Position numbers and translations under genes: made by a program. A stretch of DNA of 32,693 nucleotides from Alphaproteobacteria bacterium. Lineage in GTDB: Bacteria > Desulfobacterota > Binatia > UBA12015. The stretch covers positions 1 to 32,693 of the forward strand of contig JAFMJW010000015.1 of assembly GCA_017853315.1 (NCBI GenBank). The letters run 5' to 3'. The notes beneath the pieces were generated by a model that did no database searches, was not told the origin of the DNA, and worked only from the letters and a program-made list of their open reading frames with translations. This document shows, in pieces, positions 3 through 18,900 of the stretch (position 1 is its first letter; each line of letters opens with the position of its first letter).

Positions 3-3000
3 CGGCGTCTCTCCCCGGACCGCCCGGGCGAGATCCTGCGCGGACTGCTCGACGTCGCCTGGGCCTCGCGCGACCGCTCGATCTTCGGCAAGACGCCGGC
101 CGGCGAGGTCGCGAGCGTGCCCCTGCCTCGTCCCGACGGCGAGGCGATGCAGGTCGTCGGCCTCCCGCTGCCCGGCCCGGGCGTCTACCTCGTCGAGCTC
201 GCGAGCACGGAGCTCGGCCGCGCCCTGCTGGGCACGACGGCGCCCATGTACGTCCAGACCGCGGCGATCGTCACCGACCTCGCCGTGCACTTCGAGCGCG
301 GGCCGGAGCGCTCGCTCGCGTGGGTGACCTCGCTCGGCGCCGGCAAGCCGGTGGCGGGCGCCGAGGTCGCGGTGCACGACTGCGCCGGCACGGTGCTCGC
401 CACGGCGAAGACCGGCGCCGACGGCATCGCCTGGTTCGACCGGCTGCCGTCGGCCGATCGGCAGCCCTCCTGCAAGTCGCCTCCCTCCTCCGAGGACGTC
501 GACGCGTTCCGCGAGTGGAACTCGGAGCTCATGGGCCTGACCGACGGACTGCTCGTGACCGCTCGGGTGGGCGACGACCTGGGCCTCGCGAGCACGGCGT
601 GGACCGACGGCATCGACCTCTTCCGGTTCGACCTGCCCTACCTCTTCGAGGACGCGCCGGGGACGCGCGCTCACACCGTGCTCGCTCGCAACCTGCTGCG
701 CGCGGGCGACACGGCGCACATGAAGCACGTCCTGCGCTCCGCGATCGGCCGCGGGTTCGGCCTGCTTCCGGCCGCCGAGCGCCCGACGACGGTGGTCTTG
801 CGCCACGACGGCAGCGGGACCGAGACCTCGCTGCCGCTCGCCTGGAATCCCGACGGCACCGCGACGACCGACTGGGCGATCCCGCGCGAGGCGAAGCTCG
901 GCCTCTACCGCGTCGTGCTGCGTCGGCCGTCCGCGTCCGAGCGCGCCGCGGCCGCCGCCTCGCCGACGCCCGCGCCCCGCCCCACTCCGAGCCCGCGCTG
1001 GCCGTATGCGTCGGTGCCCGACGGCTCGATCGACTCGCGCGAGTGGGAGTCGGGCCAGCTGCGCGTCGAGGAGTTCCGCGTCCCGCTGCTCGAGACCCGG
1101 CTGCGCCTGCCCGCGGGCCCCGAGGTCGCGCCGCGCGAGGTGACGGCCGACGTCGCCTCGACCTTCCTCGCGGGCGGGCCGGCGAAGGGGCTGCCGGTCG
1201 TGGTGCGCAGCCGCGTCGTCGAGAGCTGGCTCGACCTGCCGGCCCCCTTCTCCCGGCTGAGCTTCCAGGGAGGGCCGCTGGTCGAGGGAGTCGAGCGCTC
1301 CGCGAACGGCGGCCCGGTCGCCGAGGAGTCGAGCGAGGCCGCGCCCGGCGCGGACGGCTCGACGGCGACCAGGGGCGTCTTCCGCCGCGACGAGGTTCGC
1401 CTCGACGGCACCGGCTCGGCCCGCGTCGCGATCTCCGGCGTGCCCGCGGTCTCGAAGACGAGCGAGCTGCAGGTCGAGGCCGAGGTGCGCGATCCCAACG
1501 GCGAGAGCCAGACGACCACCTCGACGCTTCGACTCTGGCCCGCTTCCCGCGTCGTCGGGATCTCGGCCGAGGCCGACCCGCGACGGCGTCGGCGCGGTAC
1601 CGCCGAAATCGCCGTGCTCGACACCGCGCTCGCGCCGGTCGCGGGCGCGCGCGTCGACGTCGATCTCTTCACCCAGCGCACGTACACGACGCGGCAGCGC
1701 GTCGTCGGCGGGTTCTACGCCTGGCAGAACGTGGTCGAGACCCGTCGCGCGGGCTCCTTCTGCCACGGGCGCACCGGTCCCGACGGGCGGCTCCGCTGCA
1801 GGCACTCGCTGCCCGACGGGCACGACTTCCTGCTGCAGGCGCGCACCCGCGACGACGCCGGCCGCGTCGCGACCGCCACCTCGTCGATCTGGCTGCCGGG
1901 CGACGATTCGGACTGGAGCCCGCAGGCCGACGACGACCGGATGGACGTCGTCCCCGAGCGCAAGTCGTGGGAACCCGGCGAGACCGCGCGCCTGCGCGCC
2001 GACGTGCCCTTCCGCGAGGCGTCGGCGCTCGTCAGCGTCGCGCGCGAGGGCGTGCTCGACGCGCGCGTCGTCAGGATCGGGCGCGGCGACGGCGGCTTCG
2101 AGGTGCCGATCCTCCCGTCCTACTCGCCGAACGTGTTCGTCCACGTGCTCGCGGTGCGCGGGCGCGTCGGCTCGATCCAGCCGACGGCGACCCTCGACCT
2201 CGGCAAGCCGGCCTTCCGGCTCGGGATCGCGCCGCTCGACGTCGGCTGGAAGCCGCACCGCCTCGACGTGACCGTCGTGCCCGAGCGCGAGGTGTTCCAC
2301 CCGCGCGAGAAGGCGCGCGTGCGCATCGCCGTGCGCGCGGCCGACGGCAGCGCGCTCGCCGCCGGCTCCTCGGTCTCGGTCGCGGCGATCGACGAGGGCC
2401 TGCTCCGGCTGATGCCCAACGACAGCTGGAAGCTGCTCGAGGCGATGATGGCCCCGCGGCCCGACCGCGTCGAGACCTCGACCTCGATGCTGCACGTGAT
2501 CGGCAAGCGCCATTTCGGCAAGAAGGCGCGGCCCGACGGCGGAGGCGGCGGAGACAAGCCGACGCGCGAGCTCTTCGACACGCTGCTCCTGTGGAAGGGC
2601 ACGGTCGTGCTCGACCGCGCCGGCCGCGCCGAGGTCGAGGTGCCGCTCAACGACTCGCTCACCGCGTTCCGCATCGCCGCGGTCGCGGAGTCCGGCACCG
2701 AGCGCTTCGGCACGGGCGAGGCGACGATCCGCTCCACGCAGGACCTGATGCTGCTCTCCGGCCTGCCGCCGGTGGTCCGCAGCGGCGACCGGTTCACGGC
2801 GCCGGTCACGGTGCGCAACGCGTCCGACCGGCCGCTCGACGTGACGGTCCGCGCGCGCGCCGGGGGGCTCGCGAACCCCGAGCTCGGCGAGCGCGCGATG
2901 CGCCTCGAGCCCGGCGAGTCGCGCATCGCCACCTGGGAGGTCGCGGTCCCCGTCGGGATCGACGGCCTCGGCTGGCAGGTCGACGCGCGCGCGAGCGGTG

Positions 3001-4610
3001 CACCCGGCGGCGCGGTCGCGACCGACCGACTCGAAGTCCGCGAGCGCGTGGTCCCCTCGGTGCCGGTGCGCACGCTGCAGGCGACGCTCGCGCAGTGGAC
3101 GCCGCCCGGGCCGCTCGTCCAGCCGGTCGCCGCCCCCGCGGGAGCCGTCCCCGGCGCCGGCGGCGTCGACGTCGGGATCGCGCCGAGCCTCGGGGCCGGT
3201 CTCGACGGCGTGCGTGCCTGGATGCGCGAGTACCCGTACTCGTGCCTCGAGCAGCGCGTGTCGCGGGCGGTCGCCGTCGGCGATCCCACGCTCTGGAAGG
3301 ACGTCGTCGGCCGGCTGCCCTCGCTGCAGGACGGCGACGGGCTGCTCCGCTTCTTCCCGTCGATGCCGCGGGGCAGCCTCTGGCTGACCGGCTACGTGCT
3401 CGACGTCGCGCACCAGGCCGGGCTCGCGCTGCCGTCCGACGTCGAGGACAAGATGAAGTCGGCGCTGCGGTCGTTCGTCGGCGGCAACCTCCGCGTGCCC
3501 GACGGCGGCGGCAGCGACCTCGTGCCGCGCAAGCTCGCCGCGATCGCGGCGCTCGCGAGCGCCGGCGGCGCCTCCGGCGCCGACCCGGCCCTGCTCGCGG
3601 GCATCGAGATCGAGCCCGCGCTCTGGCCGACGCGCACGGTCCTCGACTGGTGGCAGGTGCTGCGGCGCACGCCGGCCGTGCCCGACCGCGACGCGCGCAC
3701 GCGGGAGGCCCTGTCCGTGCTGCGCTCCCGGCTCGACCTCTCGGGAACGACGCTCGCGTTCGCGGCCGACCCGCGCGGGCGCTTCGGCGACGGTTTCGGC
3801 AGCGACGACGTGGACGCCCTGCGGCTCGTCCTCGGCGCGGTCGAGAGCGGAGCCTTCGAGGACGACCAGGGACGGCTCATGCGCGGCGCGCTCGCGCGCC
3901 AGTCGAAGGGCGCGTGGCCCGGGACGGTCGCGAACGCGTGGGGCACCATCGCGACCCGTCGCTTCGTCGCGGCCCACGAGAAGGAGCCGGTCGACGGCAC
4001 GACGACGGCGACGCTCGCCGGTGCAGCGCAGTCGGTCGACTGGGCGAAGGAGCCCGCCGGGCGGACGCTGTCCTTCGCGTGGCCCGCCGCCGGAGCCGAT
4101 CTCGCGATCGACCACCGCGGCGCGGGCCGTCCCTGGACGACGATCCGCACCCGCGCCGCCGTGCCGCTCGCGGAGCCGCTCTCGGCCGGCTTCCGCATCC
4201 GTCGCACCGTCGAGCCGATCGAGCGGCGCAGCCCGGATCGCTGGAGCGTCGGCGACACGATGCGGGTACGGGTCGAGGTCGAGGCCGCGGCCGAGCAGGG
4301 CTGGACCGTCGTCGACGACCCGGTGCCGCCCGGCGCGAGCTGGCTCGCGCGCGGCTTCTCGACCGACTCCGCCCTCGCCACGACCGGAGCGACACCCGCC
4401 CCGGGCTTCCCCCCGACCTTCGAGGAGCGTGCCTTCGAGGGACTGCGCGCCTACTGGGAGTCGGTCGGCGCGGGACGTCTGGTCGCCGAGTACTCGATCC
4501 GCCTGAACCAGGCCGGCGTCTTCCGGCTGCCCCCGACCCACGTCGAGGCGCTGTACGCGCCCGAGGTCATGGCCGAGGCTCCCATCCCGCCGCTCGAGGT
4601 CGTGGAGTGA
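3..4610 (+). CDS. Bacterial alpha-2-macroglobulin (YfhM-like), 5' end outside window
   Basis: Large periplasmic or inner-membrane-anchored protease trap. The frame is open from the first bases of the window, so the true start, signal peptide and first domains lie upstream; about 1,535 residues are visible against roughly 1,500-1,900 for the family. What identifies it is the thioester region YPYSCLEQ (Cys codon 3243-3245), preceded by a typical A2M segment with LWKGTVVLD and VPLNDSLTAFRIAAVAE (near 2590-2690). Downstream lies an alpha-helical complement-like region and then a C-terminal receptor-type domain. The thioester Cys and Gln are intact, so it should be able to form a covalent trap (known for the family, inferred here). 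Its stop overlaps the start of pbpC by four bases, the arrangement known for the yfhM-pbpC type. An in-frame GTG at 117 is only an internal codon. Confidence 0.93.
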   Translation, partial: RRLSPDRPGEILRGLLDVAWASRDRSIFGKTPAGEVASVPLPRPDGEAMQVVGLPLPGPGVYLVELASTELGRALLGTTAPMYVQTAAIVTDLAVHFERGPERSLAWVTSLGAGKPVAGAEVAVHDCAGTVLATAKTGADGIAWFDRLPSADRQPSCKSPPSSEDVDAFREWNSELMGLTDGLLVTARVGDDLGLASTAWTDGIDLFRFDLPYLFEDAPGTRAHTVLARNLLRAGDTAHMKHVLRSAIGRGFGLLPAAERPTTVVLRHDGSGTETSLPLAWNPDGTATTDWAIPREAKLGLYRVVLRRPSASERAAAAASPTPAPRPTPSPRWPYASVPDGSIDSREWESGQLRVEEFRVPLLETRLRLPAGPEVAPREVTADVASTFLAGGPAKGLPVVVRSRVVESWLDLPAPFSRLSFQGGPLVEGVERSANGGPVAEESSEAAPGADGSTATRGVFRRDEVRLDGTGSARVAISGVPAVSKTSELQVEAEVRDPNGESQTTTSTLRLWPASRVVGISAEADPRRRRRGTAEIAVLDTALAPVAGARVDVDLFTQRTYTTRQRVVGGFYAWQNVVETRRAGSFCHGRTGPDGRLRCRHSLPDGHDFLLQARTRDDAGRVATATSSIWLPGDDSDWSPQADDDRMDVVPERKSWEPGETARLRADVPFREASALVSVAREGVLDARVVRIGRGDGGFEVPILPSYSPNVFVHVLAVRGRVGSIQPTATLDLGKPAFRLGIAPLDVGWKPHRLDVTVVPEREVFHPREKARVRIAVRAADGSALAAGSSVSVAAIDEGLLRLMPNDSWKLLEAMMAPRPDRVETSTSMLHVIGKRHFGKKARPDGGGGGDKPTRELFDTLLLWKGTVVLDRAGRAEVEVPLNDSLTAFRIAAVAESGTERFGTGEATIRSTQDLMLLSGLPPVVRSGDRFTAPVTVRNASDRPLDVTVRARAGGLANPELGERAMRLEPGESRIATWEVAVPVGIDGLGWQVDARASGAPGGAVATDRLEVRERVVPSVPVRTLQATLAQWTPPGPLVQPVAAPAGAVPGAGGVDVGIAPSLGAGLDGVRAWMREYPYSCLEQRVSRAVAVGDPTLWKDVVGRLPSLQDGDGLLRFFPSMPRGSLWLTGYVLDVAHQAGLALPSDVEDKMKSALRSFVGGNLRVPDGGGSDLVPRKLAAIAALASAGGASGADPALLAGIEIEPALWPTRTVLDWWQVLRRTPAVPDRDARTREALSVLRSRLDLSGTTLAFAADPRGRFGDGFGSDDVDALRLVLGAVESGAFEDDQGRLMRGALARQSKGAWPGTVANAWGTIATRRFVAAHEKEPVDGTTTATLAGAAQSVDWAKEPAGRTLSFAWPAAGADLAIDHRGAGRPWTTIRTRAAVPLAEPLSAGFRIRRTVEPIERRSPDRWSVGDTMRVRVEVEAAAEQGWTVVDDPVPPGASWLARGFSTDSALATTGATPAPGFPPTFEERAFEGLRAYWESVGAGRLVAEYSIRLNQAGVFRLPPTHVEALYAPEVMAEAPIPPLEVVE

Positions 4611-6880
4611 GCCGGGCGCGCCGCGCGCTTTCCGTCGGCACCGCGACGGCCGCGGTCGCCGCACCCGCCGCGGTGCTGGCCGCCCTGCTCCTCCTCGCCC
4701 CGTCGGCCCGCGCGGTACCGGGCTTCGACGAGGCGCGCGCGCGACACCGCCCCTCGGACCTCCTGCTGCTCGACCGCCACGGCGAGGTGCTCGACGCGCG
4801 CCGCGTCGACCTCGACCGCCGACGCCTCGAGTGGACGCCGCTCGACCGCGTCGCGCCCGCTCTGCGGCGCGCCGTGGTCGTCTCCGAGGATCGTCGCTTC
4901 GTCGAGCACGGCGGGGTCGACGCGCGCGCGCTCGCGGCGGGCGCGATCGCGCGGCTTCGCGGCGGCCCCCGTCGCGGCGGGAGCACGATCGCGATGCAGC
5001 TCGCCGACCTGCTCGGCATCTCGCCGTCGCGCGCCGGCGGGCGCGGACTCGCGGGTAAGCTCTCGCAGGTCGCGGCCGCACGCGCGCTCGGCGCCTCGTG
5101 GTCGAAGGACGAGATCCTCGAGGCCTATCTCAACCTCGCCCCCCTGCGCGGCGAGGCGATCGGCGTCGACGCGGCTTCGCGGCTCCTCTTCGGCAAGGCG
5201 CCGCACGCGCTCTCCGACGCGGAGGCGGTCACGCTCGCCGCCCTCCTGCGCTCGCCGAACGCGCCGCCGGCATCCGTGCGCCGACGGGCCGAGACCCTCG
5301 CCGCCGACATGGCCCGATCGGGCGATCCCGCCGGAGAGGCGCTCGCGGGGCCCGGCGGCACGGCGGCGATCGCCGCCGCGGTCGAGCGCGCGTGCGAGCC
5401 GGGCGCCGCCCGCTCCCCGGTGGCGCGGATCTCGCTCGCGCCGCACGCAGCGGCGCGCCTGCTGCGCCCGGGCGGGCCGCCGGCGCTGCGCACGACGCTC
5501 GACGCGCACCTCCAGCGCGCCGCCACCGAGATCCTCGAGCGGCAGGTCCGCGCCATCGCCGAGCGCAACGTGCACGACGGCGCGGCGATCGTGCTCGACG
5601 TCGAGAGCGGCGAGGTGCTCGCCTGGGTCGGCGGCAGCGGCGCCACTTCGAGCGCCCGTCACGTCGACGGCGTGGTCGCCCATCGCCAGGCGGGCTCCAC
5701 GCTGAAGCCGCTCCTCTACGCGACGGCCCTCGACGAGCGGCGCCTCACCGCGGCCTCCCCGATCGCCGACCTGCCGCTCGAGGTCGCGGTGACCGGCTCC
5801 GGCGTCTGGCGGCCGCGCGACTACGACCCGCGCTGGCGCGGCCTCGTCACGATGCGGGAGGCGCTCGCCGGGTCGCTGAACGTGCCCGCGGTCCGCACGC
5901 TCGGGCTCGTCGGGCCGTCCACGTTCGCGACCGCGCTGCGGCGCATGGGCTTCTCCGGCGTCGACCGCCCGGGCGACCACTACGGGCCCGCGCTCGCGCT
6001 CGGCGCCGCCGACGTGAGCCTGCTCGAGCTCGCGAACGCCTACCGCGCGCTCGCGCGCGGCGGGCTCTGGACGCCGACGGCCCCGCTCGCAGCCGGCGAT
6101 CGCGAGCCGGCGGGCGGCCCGCCCGTCGCCGACGGCCGGCGCATCTGGTCGCCCGGGGCGGCCTTCGTCGTCGCCGACGTGCTCTCCGACCGCGACGGGC
6201 GCAGCGCGACCTTCGGGCTCGAGAGCGCGCTCTCGACCCGCTTCTGGTCGGCGGTGAAGACCGGCACGAGCCGCGACATGCGCGACAACTGGTGCGTCGG
6301 CTTCACGCGGCGCCACGTGGTCGCGGTCTGGGTCGGCAACTTCTCGGGCGAGCCGATGCACGACGTGAGCGGCGTCTCCGGCGCGGCCCCGGCCTGGCAG
6401 GAGATCGTCGGCCTCCTGCAGGCCGGCCTGGTCGACGAGCGCCCCGCGCCCCCGTCCGGGCTCGTGCGCCGTCGCGTGCGCTTCGCCTCGGAGCCCGAGC
6501 GCGACGAGTGGTTCCTCGCCGGGACCGAGCCGTCCTCGCGCGTCGTCGAGACCGCGCGCCCGATCGCGCGCATCGAGTCGCCGGTCGAGGACGGCGTGTT
6601 CGCGATCGACCCCGACGCGCCGCCCGCGCGCCAGCGCATCGCGCTCGACGCGAGCGGGGCGCCCGCAGGCGCCTCGTGGCGGATGGACGGTGCCGCTCTC
6701 GGCGCGGCGGAGCGCCTGCTGCTGTGGGAACCGCGCCCGGGCCGGCACCGCCTGGAACTCGCAGACACGGGCGGCCGGGTGCTCGACCGGGTCGCCTTCG
6801 AGGTCAGAGGCCCGGGCCCGGCAACGCCCCCGTCGACCCCGCCGTCATCCCGCCGTCCACCGCGATCGCCTGCCCGCTGA
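4607..6880 (+). CDS. pbpC: Penicillin-binding protein 1C (bifunctional glycosyltransferase/transpeptidase)
   Basis: Peptidoglycan synthase anchored in the inner membrane. The start is the GTG at 4607, inside the A2M stop (GTGA overlap), giving 757 residues, close to E. coli PBP1C (770). Residues 5-35 form an N-terminal hydrophobic anchor. The GT51 domain follows, with catalytic Glu94 in SEDRRFVEHGGVD and the STIAMQ motif. The transpeptidase has STLK (Ser364, Lys367), SLN (Ser423) and KTG (551-553). The C-terminal part, with PIARIESPVEDGVF onward, matches the BiPBP_C domain specific to PBP1C. Coupling to A2M suggests a repair role: the macroglobulin traps proteases that come through a damaged envelope while PBP1C mends the wall (proposed for the family). 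The last 77 bases overlap the SDR gene on the other strand, and the Pro/Arg/Ser-rich tail encoded there is probably dispensable. Confidence 0.95.
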   Translation: MSRARRALSVGTATAAVAAPAAVLAALLLLAPSARAVPGFDEARARHRPSDLLLLDRHGEVLDARRVDLDRRRLEWTPLDRVAPALRRAVVVSEDRRFVEHGGVDARALAAGAIARLRGGPRRGGSTIAMQLADLLGISPSRAGGRGLAGKLSQVAAARALGASWSKDEILEAYLNLAPLRGEAIGVDAASRLLFGKAPHALSDAEAVTLAALLRSPNAPPASVRRRAETLAADMARSGDPAGEALAGPGGTAAIAAAVERACEPGAARSPVARISLAPHAAARLLRPGGPPALRTTLDAHLQRAATEILERQVRAIAERNVHDGAAIVLDVESGEVLAWVGGSGATSSARHVDGVVAHRQAGSTLKPLLYATALDERRLTAASPIADLPLEVAVTGSGVWRPRDYDPRWRGLVTMREALAGSLNVPAVRTLGLVGPSTFATALRRMGFSGVDRPGDHYGPALALGAADVSLLELANAYRALARGGLWTPTAPLAAGDREPAGGPPVADGRRIWSPGAAFVVADVLSDRDGRSATFGLESALSTRFWSAVKTGTSRDMRDNWCVGFTRRHVVAVWVGNFSGEPMHDVSGVSGAAPAWQEIVGLLQAGLVDERPAPPSGLVRRRVRFASEPERDEWFLAGTEPSSRVVETARPIARIESPVEDGVFAIDPDAPPARQRIALDASGAPAGASWRMDGAALGAAERLLLWEPRPGRHRLELADTGGRVLDRVAFEVRGPGPATPPSTPPSSRRPPRSPAR

Positions 6881-13817: not shown

Positions 13818-14435
13818 ATGAACGGTTCGATTCGGAAGTTCGCGAAGTGGGGTCTCGTGACCGCCGCCTTCGGATTCTTCGCCGCGACGCAGCTCCTGCC
13901 GTCGGCTGGCGTGTCCGTGGCGCAGGCCGGCCTGATCGACACCGATACGATGGACGACACCTTCGTCCAGCTGAACGACGTCGCGCACCCCGACAAGGAC
14001 ACCTTCACGATCCGCGGGCGGGTCGAGTGCCAGACCGGTCAGGATCCGGTCGCCGACGGCCTGACATACGGCGTGCAGGTGACGGCTCTCGAGTCTTCCC
14101 CCCCGGTTGCGCCGATCCCCTTCCAGTACAATGTCGTGAAGTCGAAGGTCTTCGCGCCGTCGCAGTGCAAGGCGATCTTCCAGGGCCGCAGCCTCTACTG
14201 CAAGGACACGACGGACGGCAGCTTCTTCCGCCTGCGCCGGTCCTCGTCGCCGACGAAGTTCCGCGTCAACACGGTCGTGCGGCGGCAGGAGTTCGTCGAC
14301 CCGGCCAAGCCGTTCGGGCTGCCGCTCGCGGGCGACGTGCTCTTCGCGAACTTCCACTGGTTCGGCGAGACCGACTCGAACCTGTGCCGAGTGAGCCACA
14401 ACGGCGAGCGCTCGACCTGTCGCGTGAAGGACTGA
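13818..14435 (+). CDS. Secreted protein of unknown function (shares a module with 28481-29053)
   Basis: 205 residues with a clear Sec signal peptide: a basic start (SIRKFAKWG), a hydrophobic core, and a likely cut after AQA at residue 37. The start ATG has AGGAGG eight bases upstream, one of the strongest ribosome sites in the window, which suggests good expression. The mature part has five cysteines and no transmembrane segment. I do not recognise a named family. Residues 61-77 (DTFTIRGRVECQTGQDP) align without gaps to DSLTFHARIAPASAIDP in the protein at 28481. Near the C-terminus GDVLFANFHWFGETDS resembles GDDLFNNIGTWTQTKK there. It is probably a beta-rich exported protein. It stands alone between a C-run-rich spacer and a strong hairpin. 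Confidence 0.85.
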   Translation: MNGSIRKFAKWGLVTAAFGFFAATQLLPSAGVSVAQAGLIDTDTMDDTFVQLNDVAHPDKDTFTIRGRVECQTGQDPVADGLTYGVQVTALESSPPVAPIPFQYNVVKSKVFAPSQCKAIFQGRSLYCKDTTDGSFFRLRRSSSPTKFRVNTVVRRQEFVDPAKPFGLPLAGDVLFANFHWFGETDSNLCRVSHNGERSTCRVKD

Positions 14436-14669: not shown

Positions 14670-17495
14670 ATGCGCACGAAGGCCCGACCTCGACCGGCCC
14701 GCCTCCCCGGGGCTCTCCTCGCCGCGACCCTGGCCTGGGCCCGCACCGGACCGGCGGAAGCCGCCCCGGTGCGGGTGTTCCTCGTGAACCACGAGGTGAG
14801 GATCGAGGACGCGGTCGACGTGGCGGGCTTCCGCGCGAGGTTGCGCGCCCTGTTCGACGCGCGCGCGCGCGGCCCCGGCCTCGTGCAGGACGGCGTCGAC
14901 GACGTCGCCTCGCGCCTCCGGCCGCGCGACGAAGGAGCCCCAGCCCTCGCCGTCGTCCACCTGCCCGAGGACACGGGTCTCGTCGCGGCACTGGTCGGCT
15001 CGCGCGGGTCCGGGGCGCGCGCGGTCGACTCCTCGACGCTCGCGTTCGCGAGCCTGCTCGCGCCGTACGGACCCGTGATCGACCGCTACGAGGCGCGCTG
15101 GCCCGCGCTCGTCGCGCAGCCGATCCGCGGGCTCGTCGTCGCGCTGACCGACGTCCTCTACCGCACGGTCTACGAGACCTGCCGCGAGCTGGCGCGCGAG
15201 CACGGCGTCCACCTGTCGGTGTCGCTCAACGCGGCGACCGCGCGCCGGGTCGAAGCGAGCGCGGACCCGGCACTCGTCGCGCTGCTGCGCGGCCCCGACG
15301 AGCCCGGCCGCGCGTACGCGTGGGAGGCGACCTCGGACCTGCCGCGCAACGTCGTCTGGCTGTTCGAGCCTTCCGGCGAGATCCTCGTGCCGGACGGCCG
15401 GGGCGGGCTCCTGCGCTCGCCGAGCGAGACCGGCGGCGAGATCCGGCCGAGCGCCTCGAAGGCGTATCTCACCCCGATCGAGCAGGGGCTCGACAAGCCG
15501 GGCGGCGGCCTCTCGCTCGCCGCCGGGGCCGTCCGCGACCTCGACGTCCTCGACACCCCGGTCGGAGCGATCGGCGTGGTCATCTCGAAGGACGCGTGGA
15601 TGCCCGACGTGAACGAGCGCCTCGACGCGAAGGGCGCGAACTTCACGCTGCAGTCCGAGGCCTTCTCCGGCTGGGCATTCGCCGCTCGTCCGTGGGATCC
15701 CGACGTCTTCAAGGAGAGCGGCTTCGGCAACCTGCAGGGACGCGCGGGCTTCCGCTTCTCGGCCTCGCCGAGTCTCGTCGGCAACCTGTTCGACGTGACC
15801 TTCGACGGCCAGGGCGCGATCCTCGAGAAGCGACGCGAGAAGCCCCGCCCGCCCCGGCGCACCGAGCGCAACGGCTGGCTCGGCCAGCTCGCCGACTCGG
15901 GTTTCGTCGCGGTCGCGCCGTGGGTGCTCCCCGACCCCGCGCCGCCGGGATCGCCCGGGTCGTCGACGTCGCTCGCGGAGCGACGCGCGTGGCTCGCCGA
16001 GCGCGGAGCGCTCCTGCGCCCCGGCTCGGGCGTGGCCTGCTCCTCGACGGTCGAGGTCGGCGCCTGCGAGGGCGGCTACCGCGAGTCGGTCGTGTTCGCG
16101 GACCTCGAACTGCCGACCGGGCCGCTCGTCTCGGGCACGCCCGCGGGCGACGACTTCGCCGCACGCCCGGTCGCCGAGGGACTCGCTCCCGCGCGCTTCG
16201 GGTCGAGCTTCGCGCTCGCACCCGGCGGACCGGGACGACAGCGCCACCCGCGAGTCGCCGCCGACGGCGACCTCGTCGCGATCGCCTGGGACGACACGGC
16301 CGACGGGCCCGTCCCCCGGGTGCGGCTCGCGATCTCGACCGACGGCGGGCGAAGCTTCTCCGCGCCGATCGCTGCGGGCGGGCCGGGGGCCCTCCCGGGC
16401 TTCGAGGGCGCCGAGCTCCTGCCCGACGTCGAGATCGCGCGCGGCGAGATCCGCGTCGCATGGCAGGTGTTCGCCGACGCGCTCGACGACGACTCCGGCG
16501 CGATCGCCCTCGCGGCCTTCGGCGCGGACGGGCGCGTGCGCGTGCCGGTCACGCGGGTGGACGGCGGCGCGGCGCTGCCGGGCGCGGGGCGCTGGCACCC
16601 CGCGCTCGCGACCCTTCGCGGCGGCGACCCGCTCGTCGCCTGGGTCGACGAGCGCGACGCCGGCCCCGACGGCGTCGCCTTCGAGCACGTCCACGCCGCG
16701 CGCGGCCGGCGAACGGGTCCGGGGTTCTCGTTCGACGCGGCCGTGCGCGTCGGCGGAGGCAGGCCCGTGCCGCTCGCGGAAGCCTTCGACGACGAGTGGG
16801 CACCCGACGTCGCCGTCGATCGCGAGGGACGCGTCCTGGTCGCGTGGGTCGGCTTCCGCGACTACTCGTGGGACGTCTGGACGGCGCGCTCGACCGACGA
16901 GGGCGCGAGCTTCGCGGCTCCGCTGCGGGTGAACGGCGGATCCCGGGAGGAGCGGATCTGCGACGCCCCGCACCTGCTCGCGCTCGACGACGGCACGACG
17001 CTGCTCGCGTGGACCGACCTCCGCGACCGGCGCCCCGACACCGACGTGCGCCTCGCGGGAACCGGCGACGGAGGCGCGTCGTGGTCCGCCGATCGCGTGC
17101 TCGAAGACTCGTCGCTGCGCGAGGACCCCGACGTCGACGTCCCGAGCGACCAGGCGCGCGTGGCCCTCGCGACGGCCGGTGGACGCGCGCTGGCCGCCTG
17201 GCAGGACGACCGCGAGGGCAACGCCGACCTGTTCTTCTCGCCGCTCGGCCGCGGCGCGTCGGCCGCGACGTCCGCCCTCCCCGAGCGCCTCGACGACGGC
17301 GGATCCGGACCGAGCGGGCAGTTCCGGCCCGACCTCGCGGCGACCGGCTCCGATCCCCCTCGCTGCCTCGCCGCCTGGGAGGACGACCGCGACGGGCGAC
17401 TACGGATCCGCGTCGCGAGCACGCCCTGTGTCGCGGGAACCGGCCCCCGCCTGTCGGTCGGCTCCCGCGGGATCCCGACCCTCGAACGGCGGTGA
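14670..17495 (+). CDS. Secreted nitrilase-like domain fused to Asp-box beta-propeller repeats
   Basis: 941 residues with a Sec signal peptide (ending near AEA-AP, residue 32). Residues 33-370 look like the carbon-nitrogen hydrolase (nitrilase) fold: HLPEDTG gives the expected Glu100, SKAYLTPIEQ gives Lys264, and the nucleophile segment reads GAIGVVISKDAWMPD. There the usual Cys is Ser306, so normal thiol amidase chemistry is unlikely. After a linker, residues 520-920 carry repeated propeller blades with Asp-box motifs: STDGGRSF (556), STDEGASF (741) and GDGGASW (near 800), plus repeated AWxD/AWVDxRD strands. Such repeats occur in sialidases and other sugar- or protein-binding propellers; I see no sialidase active-site Arg triad I can assign. 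It is exported, but its substrate or ligand is unknown. Confidence 0.82.
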   Translation: MRTKARPRPARLPGALLAATLAWARTGPAEAAPVRVFLVNHEVRIEDAVDVAGFRARLRALFDARARGPGLVQDGVDDVASRLRPRDEGAPALAVVHLPEDTGLVAALVGSRGSGARAVDSSTLAFASLLAPYGPVIDRYEARWPALVAQPIRGLVVALTDVLYRTVYETCRELAREHGVHLSVSLNAATARRVEASADPALVALLRGPDEPGRAYAWEATSDLPRNVVWLFEPSGEILVPDGRGGLLRSPSETGGEIRPSASKAYLTPIEQGLDKPGGGLSLAAGAVRDLDVLDTPVGAIGVVISKDAWMPDVNERLDAKGANFTLQSEAFSGWAFAARPWDPDVFKESGFGNLQGRAGFRFSASPSLVGNLFDVTFDGQGAILEKRREKPRPPRRTERNGWLGQLADSGFVAVAPWVLPDPAPPGSPGSSTSLAERRAWLAERGALLRPGSGVACSSTVEVGACEGGYRESVVFADLELPTGPLVSGTPAGDDFAARPVAEGLAPARFGSSFALAPGGPGRQRHPRVAADGDLVAIAWDDTADGPVPRVRLAISTDGGRSFSAPIAAGGPGALPGFEGAELLPDVEIARGEIRVAWQVFADALDDDSGAIALAAFGADGRVRVPVTRVDGGAALPGAGRWHPALATLRGGDPLVAWVDERDAGPDGVAFEHVHAARGRRTGPGFSFDAAVRVGGGRPVPLAEAFDDEWAPDVAVDREGRVLVAWVGFRDYSWDVWTARSTDEGASFAAPLRVNGGSREERICDAPHLLALDDGTTLLAWTDLRDRRPDTDVRLAGTGDGGASWSADRVLEDSSLREDPDVDVPSDQARVALATAGGRALAAWQDDREGNADLFFSPLGRGASAATSALPERLDDGGSGPSGQFRPDLAATGSDPPRCLAAWEDDRDGRLRIRVASTPCVAGTGPRLSVGSRGIPTLERR

Positions 17496-17580: not shown

Positions 17581-18900
17581 ATGACGAACATCGCCGTTCC
17601 GCGCGCGCGCGACGTCCTCCCTCTCCTCCTCGCGACGGCGGTCGCGGCCGGCTGCGGCAGTTCCTCGAGCGGCCCGGTCGGCCCCGCGACGAGTTCGCGC
17701 ATCGAGCACGTGGTCGTGATCGTGCAGGAGAACATCAGCTTCGACTCCTACATGGGCACGTGGTGTACCGCGCCGACCGGGTCGAACCCTTCGTGCACCG
17801 AGGGTCCGGAGTGCTGCGAGCGCGCGCCCGACCGCGACCCCGGCACCGGCATCGCGCCGGTCCTGCTCGACGACGCCGAGCACGCGGCCTTCGACCCGAT
17901 CCACCTGTCGGTCTGCTTCGACTCCGAGATCAACGGCGGTCGGATGGACCAGTTCGTCGCCGGCGCCGTCTGCGGCTCGAGCCAACGGAACTTCGCGCAG
18001 GCCGACGCCGCGACCGTGCCGCTCTACCACGAGTACGCCCGCGACGGCGCGATGGCCGACCGCTGGTTCCAGTCGGTCACCGGCGCGAGTTCGGCCAACG
18101 ACATGTACCTCGTTCGTGCCGCGTTCGTCTTCCCCGACAATCAATTCATGCCCGAGGGCGCGATCGGCGACGAGTGCGCGCTGAACAAGAACGTCGCGAG
18201 CTGGGACGACCCGACGATCGGCGACCTGCTCGCCGACGCGGGCATCGGCTGGTCGTTCTACGTCGAGGGCTACGACCACATGGTCGACTCGCTCGCGCGG
18301 GGCCAGTGCCCGGCGCCCGACCCGGCCTGCCCGTTGGGCATCGGCGTCTACCCCTGCGTCTACGACCCGTCGGACATTCCCTTCCAGTACTACCCGCGCT
18401 TCCGCGACGATCCCGCCTACATCAAGGACTACTCCCGGCTCGCCGAGGACCTGGCCAGCGGAACCCTGCCGCCGGTCGCTTGGGTGAAGGGCCTCGGCTT
18501 CAAGACCGAGCATCCCGGCTACGGCACCACGATCACCGCGGGCATGGAGTTCGTCGGCGGCATCGTCGACGAAATCGAGGCCTCGCCCTACGCCTCGAAC
18601 ACGCTCGTCCTGGTGGTCTACGACGAGAGCGGCGGCTACTTCGACCACGTGGCGCCGCCGCCGAACAGCACGGTCGACGGCAAGCCCTACGGCCCGCGCA
18701 CCCCGACCTTCGCCGTCGGCCGGTTCGCCAGGAAGGGAACCGTCTCGCACGTGCCGATGGAGCACGCCTCGATCGTGCGCTTCATCGAGTGGAACTGGCT
18801 CGGCGGGAAGACGGGCCAGCTCCAGACCCGCGACGCCGTGGCGAACGGCATCGGCAGCCTGCTCGATCCCGCGGAGACCGGCACGGCCGTCCCCGAGTGA
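17581..18900 (+). CDS. Phosphoesterase-family lipoprotein (phospholipase C / AcpA-like)
   Basis: 439 residues. The signal peptide ends in the lipobox AVAAGC (Cys25), so the protein is probably lipid-anchored outside the inner membrane. The N-terminal motif IEHVVVIVQENISFDSYMGT corresponds to the phosphoesterase family hallmark (ENxSFDxYFG), with Glu50-Asn51 expected at the metal site. The late motif YDESGGYFDHVAPPP corresponds to the family's DExGGxxDHVxPP. Members include phosphatidylcholine-specific phospholipase C and AcpA acid phosphatase; I cannot separate these by eye. Many cysteines in the insert region suggest disulfides. The stop overlaps the next gene's GTG start by four bases, which points to translational coupling with a membrane glycosyltransferase-like protein. 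A short GGTGA/TCACC repeat lies 20 bases before the start. Confidence 0.88.
   Translation: MTNIAVPRARDVLPLLLATAVAAGCGSSSSGPVGPATSSRIEHVVVIVQENISFDSYMGTWCTAPTGSNPSCTEGPECCERAPDRDPGTGIAPVLLDDAEHAAFDPIHLSVCFDSEINGGRMDQFVAGAVCGSSQRNFAQADAATVPLYHEYARDGAMADRWFQSVTGASSANDMYLVRAAFVFPDNQFMPEGAIGDECALNKNVASWDDPTIGDLLADAGIGWSFYVEGYDHMVDSLARGQCPAPDPACPLGIGVYPCVYDPSDIPFQYYPRFRDDPAYIKDYSRLAEDLASGTLPPVAWVKGLGFKTEHPGYGTTITAGMEFVGGIVDEIEASPYASNTLVLVVYDESGGYFDHVAPPPNSTVDGKPYGPRTPTFAVGRFARKGTVSHVPMEHASIVRFIEWNWLGGKTGQLQTRDAVANGIGSLLDPAETGTAVPE

Follow-up and report, generated by a model that had tools for sequence, protein, structure and literature searches.

The DNA analysed here (hereafter the window) comprises positions 1 to 32,693 of contig JAFMJW010000015.1, part of a Binatia genome of 3.98 Mb in 398 contigs, and the subject of this text is a single gene within it that encodes a 941-residue protein. 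An earlier note had claimed that this protein is an exported fusion of a nitrilase-like domain, with Ser in place of the nucleophilic Cys, to a propeller with at least three Asp-box motifs. The fusion of a Ser-variant nitrilase domain to a propeller is confirmed. Reading by position, we found the codon TCG for Ser306 in the context IGVVISKDAWMPDVNERL, and E100, K264, E271 and E330 are likewise present. The features of the gene are listed below; residue counts refer to an alignment of 58 sequences of the Ser branch and 29 Cys-bearing relatives, the 58 being related sequences and not independent events.

14670..17495, + strand: whole gene, 941 residues, Ser-variant nitrilase-like domain plus predicted seven-bladed propeller (open reading frame; full-length relatives)
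14670..14762, + strand: probable Sec signal peptide, residues 1-31, ending AEA before AP (sequence; heuristic hydropathy scan)
14760..16124, + strand: predicted nitrilase-fold domain, residues 31-485 (AlphaFold2 model, VIA comparison with 6mg6, hhalign)
14967..14969, + strand: Glu100, general-base position (55/55 in the Ser clade, 29/29 in Cys relatives)
15459..15461, + strand: Lys264, catalytic lysine position (57/58; aligned with the Lys of canonical hydrolases)
15480..15482, + strand: Glu271, second-glutamate position (57/58 in the Ser clade)
15585..15587, + strand: Ser306 (TCG) at the nucleophilic Cys position (Ser 58/58, Cys 29/29 in sister groups; codon read)
15657..15659, + strand: Glu330, acidic where Cys relatives have Ser or Ala (E/D 57/58, S/A 29/29)
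16122..16181, + strand: low-confidence linker, residues 485-504 (confidence below 50 at model residues 455-474)
16188..17444, + strand: predicted seven-bladed beta-propeller, residues ~507-925 (strand order of the model; VIA matches to CylK and PLL lectins)
16335..16358, + strand: Asp-box 1, STDGGRSF, residues 556-563 (motif match in the translation)
16890..16913, + strand: Asp-box 2, STDEGASF, residues 741-748 (motif match in the translation)
17061..17084, + strand: Asp-box 3, TGDGGASW, residues 798-805 (motif match in the translation)

Two predicted folds in one protein

The protein of the window is, by itself, nearly invisible to profile searches: no significant match was obtained in Pfam, NCBIfam or PDB searches, CN_hydrolase (PF00795) is not matched at an expectation value (E) of 1 or lower, the Pfam BNR model is matched below threshold (E 0.013), and NCBIfam yields a weak match of residues 290-332 to deaminated glutathione amidase. 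The profile check that the earlier note had proposed thus fails for this sequence, but it succeeds for the family, in which 22 of 31 members match CN_hydrolase at E of 1 or lower (best 1.7e-9) and 20 of 31 match BNR.

Structure prediction is more informative. AlphaFold2 gave a model of the N-terminal domain with a mean predicted local distance difference test score (pLDDT) of 93.5 and a predicted template modelling score (pTM) of 0.94, and a two-domain model with values of 90.1 and 0.93, respectively; the fold of the N-terminal domain was judged from the separate model, since the propeller dominated the match list of the full one. All 50 structures listed for this separate model belong to the nitrilase superfamily, many at VIA Z 22-25, the highest value being that of the Helicobacter pylori carbon-nitrogen hydrolase 6mg6 (Z 24.9, 2.7 Å over 251 residues). 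The predicted model thus shows the alpha-beta-beta-alpha nitrilase fold whose absence would have spoken against the earlier claim. A profile of the family, aligned with 13 canonical hydrolases in hhalign, gives the same picture (99.4% probability, E 1.6e-21) and pairs VISKDAWMPD with CVCYDLRFPE, placing Ser306 on the catalytic Cys; it also matches mouse Nit2 (E 6.5e-5), the Cys of which is again aligned to Ser306, and NitFhit (E 7.6e-5).

The C-terminal half, according to the model, is a seven-bladed propeller of the lectin/CylK type: seven sets of strands follow model residue 490, and the best VIA matches are CylK (7ron, Z 36.7), PLL lectins (about 29) and sialidases (about 24). The Asp-box (BNR) repeat S-x-D-x-G-x-[ST]-[FW] occurs three times, as the earlier note had foreseen, whereas none of 20,000 shuffles of this half contained two or more boxes. 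The first Foldseek matches of the full model (sialidases, the GH145-type BT3686 and a rhamnose-glucuronate lyase) raise the question of whether the propeller is itself the catalytic part, a glycosidase or lyase of sialidase-like kind, to which the nitrilase-like domain would be an accessory. We consider this improbable, as 24 of the 25 invariant columns of the full-length alignment lie in the nitrilase domain and one in the propeller, the [FY]RIP arginine motif of GH33 was not seen on reading the translation, and the Ser domain also occurs without a propeller. The seven strand sets, and best matches that are seven-bladed, also differ from the six-bladed propeller of GH33.

As for export, inspection by eye and a hydropathy scan make a Sec-type signal peptide, MRTKARPRPARLPGALLAATLAWARTGPAEA followed by AP, plausible, so that the protein of the window is probably exported, as had been claimed. 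Heuristic scans suggest that such signals are common in the family (Sec-like in Binatia, lipobox-like in Myxococcota, Tat-like with RRQFLK in Bacillota) but not universal, given that the hydropathy scan found no signal peptide in members from Nitriliruptoraceae. Among the Cys relatives, one sister group has N-terminal hydrophobic anchors in the same kind of scan and the group termed CYD has no obvious export signal. The idea that Ser is an adaptation to export is unsupported, considering the Nitriliruptoraceae members without a signal and the Cys sister group with anchors.

Active site and history of the Ser branch

Position 306 is occupied by Ser in all 58 sequences of the branch, which come from Binatia, Myxococcota, Actinomycetota and Bacillota, and never by Ala, Gly, Thr or Cys; all 29 members of the sister groups have Cys, and no propeller-bearing relative examined has Cys there. 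A single base change suffices to turn Cys into Ser, and Ser306 might on that account have been a one-off mutation, or an error of sequencing, in an otherwise normal Cys nitrilase, but this explanation, which we regard as hardly credible, is refuted by the presence of Ser in several phyla in an alignment gathered partly by motif-independent searches. Since Ser is found throughout, the branch is best described as a homologous nitrilase variant by fold and sequence, and not as a standard carbon-nitrogen hydrolase.

The remainder of the catalytic set is kept, as the earlier note had stated for Glu100 and Lys264. E100 (55/55) and K264 (57/58) are each present also in all 29 Cys relatives, and E271 is found in 57 of 58 Ser sequences but in the exact column in only 10 of 29 Cys sequences, the second Glu of the latter seeming to be shifted by one position, because many of them read PTQED or PTLED. 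Q328 is invariant in both groups (58/58 in the Ser branch) and, with E100 and S306, is among the ten strictly invariant positions out of 455. Under the filter used, position 306 is the only one fixed differently between the groups, position 330 having narrowly missed it: here 57 of 58 Ser proteins have Glu or Asp (Glu in 52) whereas all 29 Cys relatives have Ser or Ala. As judged from this alignment, an acidic residue at 330 switched together with the nucleophile and separates the branch from its Cys relatives. Judging by what is generally known of N-carbamoylases, we take the region of position 330 to line the substrate pocket. A strict K307-E330 salt-bridge pair was considered and rejected, as six sequences combine Leu with Glu.

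The same active-site residues occur in three architectures, namely the propeller fusion, a fusion with a glycerophosphodiester phosphodiesterase (GDPD) domain, and single-domain proteins. A scan of genome contigs found 27 loci, one matching the propeller only and the other 26 the N-terminal domain, in Binatia and other deltaproteobacterial bins, Myxococcales, Sandaracinaceae, Solirubrobacteraceae, Nitriliruptoraceae and Bacillota. When 58 related genomes were searched in the manner of tblastn, further full-length copies with 45-58% identity came to light, so the fusion does recur. Because one seed of the contig scan was the motif VISKDAWM, the search was repeated with an N-domain profile that did not require Ser; its runs in further genome groups yielded Ser proteins as well as Cys proteins. 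In the window's own class, 17 of 148 genomes match the profile at E of 1e-15 or lower (one through the Cys relative at locus L101), meaning that the gene is patchily distributed; two genomes of the window's own genus are without it.

Six Ser loci from Thermoleophilia, with the motif ATSLPAF, have no propeller. Strict linkage of Ser to the propeller is therefore rejected, and the clade appears to be defined by Ser, not by the fusion; left out of the propeller-less count were L012 (assembly gap), L097 (broken frame), and L130 and L134 (locus or contig ending early). On a tree of 96 sequences, inferred with a quick method and having several long branches, the nucleophile label requires three changes when all states are counted, and the propeller a single one. 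Holding all Ser sequences as one clade is not rejected (p-AU 0.53, from the approximately unbiased test) and gives a marginally better fit than the unconstrained tree. Cys was probably replaced by Ser once. As the earlier Ser branches are devoid of a propeller, this replacement most likely preceded the gain of the propeller, which most likely happened once inside the Ser branch.

In four of the six Thermoleophilia loci (L197:1800-4580, L198:2338-4749, L200:2296-4662 and L201:2193-4628) a GDPD-like domain lies N-terminal to the Ser-variant domain; the one such locus scanned matches Pfam GDPD with E 2.9e-24. This fusion suggests a lipid or phosphodiester theme.

Several neighbouring genes are worth recording. 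In the window, a co-directional, lipoprotein-like PF04185 phosphoesterase (phospholipase C / acid phosphatase type) begins 85 bases downstream (17581-18900); not being conserved beside relatives, it looks incidental as a partner, as does an aguB-like gene in genome G038. Upstream (13818-14435) lies a gene for a probably exported protein of 205 residues with no Pfam match. At the other end of the window, a bacterial alpha-2-macroglobulin gene (3-4610) adjoins one of the penicillin-binding protein 1C type (about 4592-6880), a pairing already known. In one Binatia-class genome, about 17 bases separate the Ser gene from a following carbon-nitrogen hydrolase gene (L175:5515-6435), whose product is canonical, with Cys, and resembles N-carbamoylputrescine amidase, and in a Bacillota genome two nitrilase-like genes adjoin (L111:1402-2421 and 2797-3831), the second apparently with Gly for Cys (VILLGLDAL).

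A working serine or a binding site

The central question is what the fixed Ser does. The reading that we prefer, with a probability of roughly 0.5, is that Ser306 is a working nucleophile and that the propeller docks the enzyme or gates its active site. Ser306, activated by E100, would accept the acyl group of an extracytoplasmic amide or ester, K264 and E271 would help to hold the tetrahedral intermediate, and E330 may reshape the pocket for Ser chemistry or for the substrate. The propeller, in turn, could bind a surface glycan or protein, or cap or gate the catalytic centre in the manner of CylK or prolyl oligopeptidase. Catalysis is favoured slightly because the E-K-E set is kept together with an invariant Ser and an acidic residue fixed at 330, a pattern more suggestive of retuning than of loss.

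Several observations weigh against this reading. K264 is replaced by Glu in a frameshifted fragment (L140), E271 by Gly in L121, and the basic residue (Lys or Arg) at 307 is lost in 9 of 58 sequences; the gene neighbours are not conserved across lineages and give no hint of a substrate. In addition, the engineered C169S variant of yeast Nit2 was solved, to go by the title of the entry (4hgd), with an endogenous peptide-like ligand bound. The last point leads to the view of the protein as a pseudoenzyme or ligand binder, in which the nitrilase domain would hold a ligand resembling an amide or peptide in a frozen active site, Ser blocking turnover, and the propeller would tether the protein to the cell surface or to a partner. 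The exported or lipoprotein-like appearance of several members and the lectin-like propeller fit this view, as do two relatives (L122 and L126) that are apparently dead forms, their nucleophile being replaced by Gly and their Lys by Glu. We assign it a substantial chance, if one somewhat below one half, for Ser is never exchanged, E100, K264 and E271 are kept, and the site, instead of being eroded, gained an acidic residue at 330. Indeed, as the two Gly relatives have also lost the Lys, the site can decay, but this has not happened in the Ser branch.

If the preferred reading of Ser306 as a working nucleophile is extended to the whole family, it would describe a bacterial Ser-nucleophile branch of the nitrilases, founded by a single conversion of Cys to Ser that was fixed with the acidic 330; its centre, stable and for the most part extracytoplasmic, would carry out acyl transfer or hydrolysis and would later have been joined to propellers or GDPD domains. 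We hold this wider scenario with a confidence just short of even.

Comparison with known systems

A Cys-Glu-Lys centre is the defining feature of the nitrilase superfamily, whose members are routinely studied or trapped by substituting the Cys. Both folds of the protein are already known; what appears to be new is the Ser branch, together with the fusion: Pfam and NCBIfam hold no curated family model covering the architecture, and our literature search found no paper combining a nitrilase with a seven-bladed propeller, in keeping with the earlier remark that it is not a described family. The family thus supplies an unnamed and unannotated domain architecture and an unnamed branch of the superfamily. 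With Ser fixed over several phyla and a second change in the presumed pocket, the use of a Ser nucleophile by this fold becomes directly testable against a widespread substrate-binding family.

With the members of PF00795 (Nit2, NitFhit, N-carbamoylputrescine amidase and the NitN amidase) the branch shares the fold, the E-K-E set, the CxD frame in the form SxD, and profile similarity; it differs in its branch-wide Ser, the acidic 330, long insertions and the propeller. Closest in sequence are the Cys relatives of 340-480 residues from Bacillota, Binatia and Myxococcota (L101, L111, L139-L165), which share Q328 and the placement of E and K but have a Cys nucleophile, Ser or Ala at 330, and no propeller. 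E-K-S triads resulting from a natural change of Cys to Ser have been described in vanin/symplectin-like proteins of cephalopods, and the authors of that study point out that nucleophilic attack by Ser would still be conceivable (PMC5541922). Those, however, are sporadic, repeated changes in animal proteins with a vanin base domain and no propeller. The apolipoprotein N-acyltransferase Lnt likewise has an extracytoplasmic nitrilase domain with a homologous set (E267-K335-E343-C387; PMC5500890), but it retains Cys, has a membrane domain and is without a propeller.

On the propeller side, the Photorhabdus PLL/PHL lectins resemble the protein in fold only (seven blades, Z 27-29) and are lectins without a catalytic domain. 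CylK is the best structural match of the propeller and also a two-domain fusion, with its active site at the domain interface (PMC8916777); its N-terminal domain binds Ca, and its catalytic Arg and Tyr at the interface serve Friedel-Crafts alkylation, whereas the N-terminal domain described here has a predicted nitrilase fold.
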